The notes under the pieces: generated by a model
Database searches by the model: none
The model's input: the letters and a program-made list of their open reading frames with translations, nothing else
Told to the model about the DNA's origin: nothing
DNA from: Actinokineospora auranticolor
Lineage (GTDB): Bacteria > Actinomycetota > Actinomycetes > Mycobacteriales > Pseudonocardiaceae
Length of the DNA: 64,000 bases
Direction of reading: 5' to 3'
Assembly (NCBI RefSeq): GCF_002934265.1
Contig: NZ_PTIX01000006.1
Location: forward strand, 1-64,000
In this document: in pieces, positions 27,781-30,091 of the stretch
Position numbering within the stretch: the stretch's first letter is position 1
How the letters are laid out: the number at the start of each line of letters is the position of its first letter
Program-made: the position numbers and the translations under genes

Positions 27781-28194
27781 GTGACCGGCCTCTACGTCGC
27801 GCTCGGCACGCTGCTGGTGGCCGCGGTGGTCGGCAGGCTGGTGCGGCTGCGCGACGGCCGGAACCGCCGGGCGCGCGCCGCCGCGCTCCCCGAGGACGTC
27901 CGCCGGGTGCTCGACCCGGCGGACGGGGTGACCCTGGTGCAGCTGTCGTCCCAGTTCTGCGGCACCTGCCACCAGGCCAAGGCCCTGCTGACCGACCTGG
28001 CCGCGGGCACCGCCGGGCTGGGCTACGCCGACATCGACCTCACCGACCGGCCCGAGCTGGCCAAGGAACTCGCCGTGCTGCGCACCCCGACCACGCTGGC
28101 CGTCGCGGCCGACGGGATGGAGCTGCTGCGCGTCGGCGGCGTCCCGAAACGTGAAGACCTGCTCACCGCGCTGCGCCCGCACCTGAGCGCTTGA
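27781..28194 (+). CDS. Membrane-anchored thioredoxin (ThiX-like)
   Basis: 137 residues from GTG 27781. One N-terminal membrane helix (VALGTLLVAAVVGRLV) is followed by a thioredoxin fold with the redox motif QFCGTCHQAK and the cis-Pro in LRTPTTLAV. It should act as a thiol-disulfide exchanger at the membrane. It sits directly after the LmeA-like gene and before the sulfur operon, in the place of mycobacterial thiX next to cysA2-sseC2. Confidence 0.87.
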   Translation: MTGLYVALGTLLVAAVVGRLVRLRDGRNRRARAAALPEDVRRVLDPADGVTLVQLSSQFCGTCHQAKALLTDLAAGTAGLGYADIDLTDRPELAKELAVLRTPTTLAVAADGMELLRVGGVPKREDLLTALRPHLSA

Positions 28195-28287
28195 TCGGGG
28201 TGTGACCTGCGCCAACGCGGCGCGCAAGTGGCGGTGTCGGCGTCCCACCAAATGGGCACGCCCTCTCAGCGCCGCCGTCGCGGCGGG

Positions 28288-28293
28288 TACGCT
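28288..28293 (+). promoter_or_regulatory. -10 element of the sulfur operon leader
   Basis: TACGCT lies 7 bases before the GTG at 28301. The transcript would begin at or next to that start codon, giving a leaderless small ORF. Confidence 0.6.
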
Positions 28294-28300
28294 CGCGCCC

Positions 28301-28375
28301 GTGTCCAGCTTCCTGACCAGGCGCCGCGCGGTGGACTTCTGCCGCGTGCGCAGCAGCCTGTGTCGGGGCACCTGA
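28301..28375 (+). CDS. Leaderless cysteine leader peptide (24 aa)
   Basis: GTG start, 24 codons, no Shine-Dalgarno, 7 bases after a -10 element. The peptide contains RRRAVDFCRVRSSLCRG, which fits the R-x-x-V-D-x-x-R-V-x-S-x-L-C pattern of small leader peptides found upstream of sulfur and cysteine genes in Streptomyces and relatives. Cys codons are at positions 14 and 21. In mycobacteria, leaderless cysteine-rich ORFs before the equivalent cysA2 operon act as cysteine-responsive attenuators. Codons 4-7 (28311-28321) are perfectly complementary to the Shine-Dalgarno region of the next gene, so translation of this ORF should control access to it. Confidence 0.8.
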   Translation: MSSFLTRRRAVDFCRVRSSLCRGT

Positions 28376-28437
28376 CCGGGCGGCCCGCTTCGGCCCGTCG
28401 CCCGACCGGACCCCACGCCCGTGTCCTGGTCAGGAGG
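28311..28437 (+). promoter_or_regulatory. Candidate cysteine attenuator: two anti-Shine-Dalgarno segments
   Basis: TCCTGACCAGG (28311-28321, inside the leader ORF) is the exact complement of CCTGGTCAGGA (28425-28435), which overlaps the AGGAGG ribosome site (28432-28437) of the DUF4395 gene. A second segment, CCTGACC at 28371-28377, covering the leader stop codon, pairs with the same GGTCAGG. Ribosome position on the leader would decide which pairing forms. The mechanism is inferred from these complementarities. Confidence 0.65.
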
Positions 28438-28446
28438 CCACCCCAG

Positions 28447-28911
28447 TTGTCCACCACCCCACCGGTGCCCCCGCGCGCGAGCGTGGACCCCCGGGGCCCC
28501 CGTTTCGCCGCCTGGGTGACCAGCGCCGTGCTGGTCGCGGTGCTGGCCACCGGCTGGTGGCCGCTGCTCGCGGCGCAGGCCCTGGTGTTCGCCGTCGGCG
28601 CGTTCGCCGGGCTCCGGTACGCCCCGTACGCGGCGCTGTTCCGGGTTCTGGTCGCGCCCCGGCTCGCCCCCACCGACGAGCGCGAGGACGCCGCCCCGGT
28701 GCGCTTCGCCCAGGGCGTCGGGTTCGGGTTCGCCGTGGTCGGCGCGCTCGGCTACGCCTTCGACGTGCCCGCGCTCGGCCTCGTGGCCACCGCGTTCGCC
28801 CTCGCCGCCGCGTTCCTCAACGCCGCCTTCGGCTTCTGCCTCGGCTGCGAGACCTATGTGCTGCTCAACCGTTTGTCCATCATCAAACCGAAAGTGGGAA
28901 CCGCCCGATGA
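28447..28911 (+). CDS. DUF4395 membrane protein
   Basis: 154 residues from TTG 28447, 9 bases after a perfect AGGAGG. Hydrophobic segments lie at about 17-36, 38-58 and 90-130. A conserved pair of cysteines, NAAFGFCLGCETYVLL, near the C-terminal membrane segment suggests thiol or persulfide chemistry. DUF4395 proteins regularly neighbour thioredoxins and sulfurtransferases. Its stop overlaps the sulfurtransferase ATG (ATGA), so the two are translationally coupled. A longer frame reaching back to 28228 would run through the leader peptide and promoter and is rejected. Confidence 0.85.
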   Translation: MSTTPPVPPRASVDPRGPRFAAWVTSAVLVAVLATGWWPLLAAQALVFAVGAFAGLRYAPYAALFRVLVAPRLAPTDEREDAAPVRFAQGVGFGFAVVGALGYAFDVPALGLVATAFALAAAFLNAAFGFCLGCETYVLLNRLSIIKPKVGTAR

Positions 28912-29747
28912 GCCGTGAAGACGTGCTGGTTTCGGCCGCGTGGGCCGAGGAGAACCTCAACGCCGACGGGGTGGTGTTCGTCGAGGTCGACGAGGACACC
29001 AGCGCCTACGACACCGGTCACATCCCGGGCGCCATCAAGGTCGACTGGCGGCAGGACCTGCAGGACCCGGTGCGCCGCGACTTCGTCGACCGCGCGGGCT
29101 TCGAGAAGCTGCTCTCCGCGCGCGGCATCGGCAACGACGACCTCGTGGTCCTCTACGGCGGCAACAACAACTGGTTCGCCGCGTACGCGTACTGGTACTT
29201 CAAGCTCTACGGCCACCAGTCGGTCAAGCTGCTCGACGGCGGCCGCAAGAAGTGGGAGCTCGACGGCCGCCCGCTGAGCGCCGACGCGGTCGAGCGCGCC
29301 ACCACCAGCTACACCGCCCAGGAGCAGGACCTGTCGCTGCGCGCGTTCCGCGACGACGCGGTGGCCGCGATCAACACCAAGAACCTGGTCGACGTGCGCT
29401 CCCCCGACGAGTTCTCCGGCAAGCTCGCCGCCCCGGCGCACCTGCCGCAGGAGCAGGCGCAGGTCAAGGGCCACATCCCGACCGCGATCAACGTGCCGTG
29501 GAGCAAGGCGGCCAACGAGGACGGCACCTTCAAGTCCAACGACGAGCTGCGCGAGCTGTACCAGGAGGCGGGCCTCGACGAGGGCAAGGCGACCATCGCC
29601 TACTGCCGCATCGGCGAGCGCTCCTCGCACACCTGGTTCGCCCTGCACGAGCTGCTCGGCTACAGCGACGTGAAGAACTACGACGGCTCGTGGACCGAGT
29701 ACGGCTCCCTGGTCGGCGTCCCCGTCGAGGTCGGCGCCCAGAACTGA
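28908..29747 (+). CDS. Thiosulfate/3-mercaptopyruvate sulfurtransferase (CysA2/SseA type)
   Basis: 279 residues, two rhodanese domains. The N-terminal domain is inactive. The C-terminal domain has the active-site loop YCRIGERSSHTWF with catalytic Cys at about residue 233, the CRxGxR form of actinobacterial thiosulfate sulfurtransferases. It moves sulfane sulfur from thiosulfate or mercaptopyruvate to a thiol acceptor. The preceding thioredoxin and DUF4395 are likely partners, and DUF1416 follows, as in mycobacterial cysA2-sseC2. Confidence 0.94.
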   Translation: MSREDVLVSAAWAEENLNADGVVFVEVDEDTSAYDTGHIPGAIKVDWRQDLQDPVRRDFVDRAGFEKLLSARGIGNDDLVVLYGGNNNWFAAYAYWYFKLYGHQSVKLLDGGRKKWELDGRPLSADAVERATTSYTAQEQDLSLRAFRDDAVAAINTKNLVDVRSPDEFSGKLAAPAHLPQEQAQVKGHIPTAINVPWSKAANEDGTFKSNDELRELYQEAGLDEGKATIAYCRIGERSSHTWFALHELLGYSDVKNYDGSWTEYGSLVGVPVEVGAQN

Positions 29748-29785: not shown

Positions 29786-30091
29786 ATGAGCTCCTGTGGA
29801 GCCCCCGAGCAGGGAACCGCGCTGCCCGCCACCGTGGACGCGGGCAAGGAGACCGTCCTCAACGGCAAGGTCACCCGCGCAGGCGAGCCGGTCGGCGGTG
29901 CGTTCGTGCGGCTGCTGGACGGCACCGGCGAGTTCACCGCCGAGGTCGTGTCCTCCGCCGAGGGCGACTTCCGGTTCTTCGCCGCCCCGGGTGACTGGAC
30001 GGTCCGGGCGCTGCACCGCGACGGCAACGGCGAGACCAAGGTCAGCGCGAGCGGCCCCGGTCTGCACGAGGTCGCCGTCTCGGTCGGCTGA
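29786..30091 (+). CDS. DUF1416 protein (SseC family)
   Basis: 101 residues, with GAAGGGA before ATG 29786. Cys4 near the N terminus (MSSCGAPEQG) is conserved in the family and could carry persulfide. The rest, from VLNGKVTRAGEPVGGAFVRL on, is a small beta-sandwich of carboxypeptidase-regulatory or transthyretin type. It always follows the sulfurtransferase in mycobacteria (sseC2). Its biochemical role is not established; a sulfur-carrier or partner role is inferred from linkage. Confidence 0.9.
   Translation: MSSCGAPEQGTALPATVDAGKETVLNGKVTRAGEPVGGAFVRLLDGTGEFTAEVVSSAEGDFRFFAAPGDWTVRALHRDGNGETKVSASGPGLHEVAVSVG

Follow-up and report, generated by a model that had tools for sequence, protein, structure and literature searches.

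Introduction

Classical ribosome-mediated attenuators of the trp type and translational attenuators of the erm type read the site of a stalled ribosome through mutually exclusive RNA helices. In mycobacteria, the Ms5788A leader of a cysA2-type sulfurtransferase operon was reportedly described by Canestrari et al. in 2020 as a leaderless poly-Cys attenuator. The conclusion on this mycobacterial leader is relayed in passages of papers that cite the work (PMC13236596, PMC9031893, PMC9094748), and an excerpt of another report places a small ORF with clustered Cys codons ahead of cysA2 (PMC4633059). In passages of a further paper, Cys leaders without terminators are described, as is a LEU element before actinobacterial leuA whose leader codons were proposed to pair with the downstream Shine-Dalgarno sequence (SD), and which involves Leu codons and a pseudoknot (PMC1262725).

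Here we describe a leader found in a 64,000-nucleotide stretch of DNA (the window) from Actinokineospora auranticolor, whose genome measures 8.43 Mb. This leader resembles Ms5788A in its motif (LT[RKQ]RRAVDxCRV), its probable leaderless start, its likely SD-sequestration logic and the type of operon that it precedes; in mycobacterial loci, a DUF4395-like gene likewise follows the leader. Mycobacterial leaders carry a poly-Cys tract, which is the best complement to the SD in 11 of 18 loci, whereas the two Cys codons of the window leader are spaced by 7 codons, the second alone seems to act as a sensor, the predicted anti-SD lies on the stop codon, and the spacer holds an extra pair of segments (2 and 3). 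As in erm-type systems, the output would fall on the ribosome-binding site. Unlike the trp and erm types, however, the window leader involves neither an antibiotic nor a terminator, and its stop codon itself would be part of the sequestering helix. The LEU element is similar in setting leader codons against a downstream SD, and different in its Leu codons, its pseudoknot and its unproven mechanism (PMC1262725). We regard the window leader as related to an already known family of attenuators, with its predicted anti-SD placed differently. Among the papers listed by searches of open-access literature, none dealt with the stop-codon element or with a UGU sensor codon.

Results

A cysteine leader precedes a sulfur operon

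All features given below lie on the forward strand. The leader is an ORF of 24 codons (GTG to TGA, 28301..28375) that starts 7 nt after a probable -10 box, TACGCT (28288..28293), and encodes the peptide MSSFLTRRRAVDFCRVRSSLCRGT. Its two Cys codons are codon 14 (TGC, 28340-28342) and codon 21 (TGT, 28361-28363), and its stop codon TGA occupies positions 28373-28375. Letter-by-letter reading agreed exactly with an earlier note on this DNA regarding the ORF, the box and both Cys codons. No run of adjacent Cys codons is present in the window leader, which has Cys at codons 14 and 21 only.

When compared with profiles of known leaders, the peptide scored 34.9 bits (E 8.8e-9) against the equivalog NF042933 (leader_Ms5788A), under its 45-bit cut-off, and 24.3 bits against the domain model NF042934 (cis_reg_atten), under its 27-bit cut-off; in the genome scan the latter score was 22.2 bits. 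Judged from these scores, the leader is a clear homologue, rather than a formal member, of both groups. It shares the R-x-V-D-x-x-R-V core of the NF042934 leaders of Actinomycetota and differs from them in its operon, its SD context and its score below the cut-off. Three other leaders in the same genome exceed the NF042934 cut-off (L002, C5:394176; L003, C4:418440, minus strand; L004, C3:382443, minus strand), and the genes after them encode an NMT1/phosphonate-type ABC substrate-binding protein, a nitrite/sulfite reductase and a sodium:dicarboxylate symporter, respectively. Leaders scoring below the cut-off also occur in this genome before a relative of cysteine dioxygenase type I (L005, C20:63160) and before a luciferase-like monooxygenase (L007, C23:48085). 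A Cys leader on a cysteine-degrading enzyme would be odd if induction came at shortage.

Profile searches of the downstream genes revealed that the leader adjoins a cysteine/sulfur operon. The SD, AGGAGG (28432..28437), which was found by direct reading and by SD search, precedes a gene for a DUF4395 membrane protein (28447..28911; PF14340, E 1.3e-44) with a TTG start assigned by SD search. This gene is followed by one for a two-domain rhodanese of the thiosulfate/mercaptopyruvate sulfurtransferase type (28908..29747; PF00581, with NF008557 below its cut-off) and by a DUF1416 gene (29786..30091; PF07210, E 1.7e-44). Immediately upstream of the leader, on the same strand, lies a thioredoxin-like gene (27781-28194; PF00085, E 8e-7).

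In 120 of 125 family leaders, a TANNNT box lies 6-7 nt ahead of a start codon in frame, compared to 3.8 expected from shuffles. The retention of this box supports leaderless transcription, with the start codon at the probable 5' end of the transcript. A consensus scan detected no sigma-70-type promoter at the leader. Nor did the scan find an intrinsic terminator, with a hairpin and U run before the first gene, in the region 28150-28480. The Rfam search returned two matches only, both to microRNA models and both sub-threshold, far below the gathering scores.

The leader is common in the family and the class

DUF4395 was found in 182 of 200 genomes of the family, representing all 46 genera, and upstream DNA was taken for 130 of these 182 genomes, among the matches listed. 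A regex search identified the leader in 126 of the 130 upstream regions (40 genera), with the motif LT[RKQ]RRAVDxCRVxSSLC or a close variant; the four regions without a leader by this search were L046, L087, L111 and L118. In about one-quarter of the family leaders, the tail is longer or the layout differs. Five loci were left out of the tests that involve the SD, either because no usable SD was available (L023, L066, L134) or because the SD was wrongly called (L040, L041). Across the class, NF042933 matches were obtained in 296 of the 394 genomes sampled (95 of 137 genera), and these were above the cut-off in 48.

In nine relatives (L034, L036, L038, L044, L045, L049, L054, L074, L083), the leader stop falls 1 nt before the DUF4395 start. 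The SD of these coupled layouts, which make up 9 of 123 relatives, is inside the leader, often together with CACCTCC in the leader.

Of the 126 family leaders, 119 encode Cys at codon 14 and 125 do so at codon 21. Having two separated Cys codons is the rule in the family and does not set this species apart. Codon 14 is TGC in 113 family leaders, and codon 21 is TGT in 125 of 126. The single exception (L134) has CGT at codon 21, so that Cys is lost, and its SD was not found; it may represent decay or a sequence error. TGT is scarce elsewhere, accounting for 1 of 33 Cys codons in the 5' parts of DUF4395 genes and for 11 of 126 in 54 crudely called genes of the window. For the class, 60 regions were fetched, of which 22 had no leader by regex, and 67 class leaders were examined, 9 of them without an SD. 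Among the class loci that have both leader and SD, TGT occupies the last conserved Cys position in all 42 non-mycobacterial and all 16 mycobacterial-type cases. We also considered that UGU might result from pairing with the LT codons, but this explanation is not favoured because TGT persists where the LT codons read CTCACC. Serine codons 18 and 19 (28352-28357) read AGC AGC. Where relatives have Ser at these codons, AGC is retained by 101 of 120 leaders at the first and by 102 of 112 at the second, against an expected fraction of 0.23.

The leader stop codon and the spacer covary with the SD

The sequence CCTGACC (28371-28377) contains the leader stop codon and is an exact 7-base complement, as the earlier note had stated; its partner is 28428-28434. 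A 7-base run of this kind is present in 2.3% of 5000 random 18-nt segments, and for this reason the stop-codon complement is less striking in the window alone than the one in codons 4-7 (see below). Across relatives, however, the order of the two complements is reversed: the stop-codon element covaries with the SD, and codons 4-7 do not.

To assess covariation, we computed how strongly a leader segment pairs with the SD segment of its own locus and compared this energy with those obtained for SD segments of other genera. For the stop-codon region, this swap of SDs between genera yielded z -3.8, with 0 of 5000 permutations reaching the observed value (39 genera, 121 sequences, at most 4 per genus). 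When 12-nt windows were used (110 sequences, at most 3 per genus, after 11 with an SD less than 28 nt from the stop were dropped), a sharp peak was evident for starts 8 to 4 nt ahead of the stop (p 0.0005-0.001). Eight pairings within the leader and spacer were then compared in 88 sequences from 31 genera (at most 3 per genus; 33 sequences were dropped by a 60-150 nt spacing filter). Three were significant: the stop-codon element with the SD (p 0.0002, the floor of the test), segments 2 and 3 with each other (p 0.0002), and the SD with segment 3 (p 0.0028). The other five pairings were not significant in this set.

In the window, segment 2 is GGGCGGC (28378..28384), which in the model with a ribosome stalled at Cys21 pairs with 28397-28403. 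These positions form the first part of segment 3 (28397..28411), the remainder of which (28404-28411) is predicted to pair with 28423-28431, just upstream of AGGAGG. In these comparisons, the putative anti-SD that includes the leader's own stop changes along with the SD across genera, and the two partners of each spacer helix change along with each other.

A compensatory change occurs within the genus, where 15 of 16 Actinokineospora genomes have the DUF4395 gene. The sequence cgg[TGA]CCTG, with the stop codon bracketed, is found with CAGGTCA (L010, L014), whereas cgg[TGA]TCTG is found with CAGATCA (L016). The helix of L016 is restored because its stop-codon element has changed from TGACCTG to TGATCTG alongside the change in SD context. 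In four congeners (L018, L024, L139, L140), the LT element scores better than the stop-codon element, by 6 to 10 kcal/mol. Outside the family, covariation of the stop-codon element with the SD was not significant among 42 loci (p 0.16-0.19).

RNAalifold gave no consensus structure among the leaders. A hairpin over codons 9-16 was rejected as a candidate: its pairs are often retained, but broken pairs occur without compensation and RNAalifold gave it no consensus.

The complement in codons 3 to 7 is striking in the window

The other complement corresponds to codons 3-7 (28308..28321), which can form 14 bp, including one G-U, with 28425-28438. Within it, TCCTGACCAGG (28311-28321) equals the reverse complement of 28425-28435 at every base, which confirms the 11-base match claimed previously. 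When codons 1-12 were compared with the SD, none of up to 3000 random 36-nt segments from the window reached a run of 11. Among 5000 synonymous recodings of the leader, 2.8% matched the run and 0.26% matched its energy.

No family-wide covariation of the LT-codon region with the SD was detected, either by the SD swap in 39 genera (p 0.17) or in the 31-genera set (p 0.42), and the proposal that codons 4-7 are the main anti-SD is thus not supported. Among 39 windows, those starting 3 and 6 nt past the LT start gave p 0.0045 and 0.001. In 7 genera, including that of the window, the LT-codon complement is better than swapped SDs by more than 3 kcal/mol. Synonymous recoding around LT gave values below 0.1 in 2 of 39 genera, and two other regions each yielded 1 of 39. 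These comparisons suggest that the codon 4-7 segment is under little RNA-level selection across the family. The leader-SD comparison of relatives that the earlier note had proposed bore out the stop-codon complement and not codons 4-7.

Within Actinokineospora, CTGACCAGG is kept in 14 of 15 genomes, and the SD context is GGTCAGG in 14 of 15. The exact 11-mer of the window depends on T28427, where the other 14 congeners have A or C. In L016, the codon 5-6 element is unchanged and is mismatched to the altered SD context GATCAGG. In L010, the LT element is lost, the stop-codon element is kept and the SD context is unchanged. Moreover, a stalled ribosome would not mask codons 4-7, because either Cys codon lies downstream of them. 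The codon 3-7 helix is possibly an extra lock at the level of the species or genus.

Folding models of the downstream RNA place SD exposure at codon 21

Ribosome positions were modeled by folding only the RNA ahead of the ribosome, ending at SD+2; the spacing filter described above was applied and leaders with long tails were also dropped. In 80 sequences, the fraction of SD unpaired was 0.46 with the A site on Cys21, 0.30 on the stop, 0.26 on Cys14 and 0.29 for free RNA. Exposure was greater at Cys21 than at the stop in 21 of 29 genera and smaller in 4 (Wilcoxon p 1e-4). A codon-by-codon scan (59 sequences, at most 3 per genus) produced a single peak at offset 0 from Cys21 (0.47, compared to 0.26-0.31 further off), and shuffling of the spacer in these 59 sequences abolished the difference between Cys21 and stop, which fell from 0.174 to 0.023 (p 0.0002). 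The window itself gave 0.68 at Cys21 and about 0.33 elsewhere.

The same scan of 20 mycobacterial loci peaked at the first poly-Cys codons (0.65-0.75, compared to 0.27-0.30 upstream). The peak in these loci is thus shifted upstream, to where the poly-Cys tract begins, as the published mechanism would demand. In 49 loci from other families, the peak is near codon 21 (0.42), with that of the Actinomadura group two codons earlier. The comparison loci included 21 of 80 named loci, 2 of which had no leader.

The SD-exposure peak at Cys21 depends on the extent of RNA that is folded. In these further models (at most 2 sequences per genus), the profile was flat (0.27) when 30 nt of coding RNA was added, the peak shrank (0.31) when upstream RNA was free, and it was modest and shifted by one codon with one trailing ribosome. 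Masked folding of the whole transcript in 111 sequences left the SD open at 0.21 for free RNA, 0.25 at Cys21 and 0.27 at the stop. For the window, folding of the upstream RNA reduced SD exposure to 0.0 at every position, and with one trailing ribosome the SD was closed from Cys21 onward. The peak vanishes in this case because the 14-bp codon 3-7 helix, which dominates the minimum-energy fold, keeps the SD shut. From these models, either this helix would be kept off by loading ribosomes, or the switch of the window would be weaker than those of its relatives, or the helix would be a true second lock.

Discussion

We consider it probable, at roughly two chances in three, that the leader belongs with Ms5788A as a cysteine-responsive translational attenuator with a leaderless start, in which a stall at codon 21 exposes the SD. 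The sensing, the direction and the mechanism of the switch are what we infer from the comparisons above. When cysteine is plentiful, ribosomes would complete the leader and leave, and the stop-codon element would pair with GGTCAGG and, together with the spacer hairpins, close the SD. When Cys-tRNA is short, a ribosome would pause once codon 21 occupies the A site, and its leading edge would mask the stop-codon element and not segment 2. The uncovered segment 2 would then hold segment 3, leaving the SD free so that DUF4395, the sulfurtransferase and DUF1416 would be made. A ribosome on the stop codon would mask segment 2 as well, and the SD would reclose. In the window species, codons 3-7 could also pair with the SD, and this extra lock would open only with further ribosomes at the 5' end. 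Of the wiring proposed in the earlier note, a Cys leader on the homologous sulfur operon and SD sequestration as the likely output are retained. Its use of codons 4-7 as the lock is replaced, given that the stop-codon element covaries and that Cys21, not Cys14, exposes the SD in the models.

Part of the case for the codon 3-7 segment (28308-28321) as the principal anti-SD, with leader stalling and queued ribosomes freeing the SD, is its strength in the window, where the 14-bp helix is stronger than 99.7% of synonymous recodings and governs the minimum-energy fold. The margin of more than 3 kcal/mol in 7 genera, the two post-LT windows (p 0.0045 and 0.001) and retention in 14 of 15 congeners point the same way. 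That family-wide covariation is absent (p 0.17 and 0.42), that just 2 of 39 genera gave a value below 0.1 in the synonymous test, and that L016 and L010 break the pairing without compensation while the 11-base exactness rests on T28427, all make this arrangement unlikely, as does the position of the segment, which a ribosome stalled at either Cys codon would already have passed. Rho-dependent transcription attenuation, by which the translating ribosome would govern access of Rho to the leader RNA and SD pairing would be secondary, was proposed for mycobacterial cys leaders since no terminators were found, according to passages of one paper (PMC1262725), and the scan of the window locus likewise found no intrinsic terminator. 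Such a mechanism predicts neither the covariation of the stop codon and spacer with the SD nor SD exposure that is greatest with the ribosome at codon 21, and we regard it as improbable here. The coupled arrangement in 9 of 123 relatives, with the stop 1 nt before the DUF4395 start, would suit a translated leader that senses nothing and only passes ribosomes on to DUF4395, through coupling or re-initiation. This leaves Cys21, the invariant TGT and the conserved helices unexplained and seems very improbable to us.

An elaboration of the attenuator reading, which we offer as a speculative and rather doubtful possibility, is a double-locked gauge. Here, a stop-codon lock would be opened at UGU codon 21 and a codon 3-7 lock would be opened by loading leaderless ribosomes, such that the operon would be on only if translation is active and Cys-tRNA is short. 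The class-wide UGU, read by wobble, would be kept as a tuned hungry codon, and the anti-SD would have moved from the Cys tract in mycobacteria to the stop codon in Pseudonocardiaceae, with SD exposure still tied to the sensing codon.

As the two complements illustrate, a modest match that covaries in relatives can tell more than a striking exact one from a single genome (codons 4-7). The attenuator reading with the stop-codon lock provides a codon-resolved, testable model for a leader matched in 296 of 394 sampled class genomes, beyond the poly-Cys cases of mycobacteria. Our findings suggest that the lock can include the stop codon of the leader, that a single UGU in the right place can stand in for a poly-Cys run, and that the anti-SD can shift its position within the leader without altering where the sensing codon lies with respect to it.
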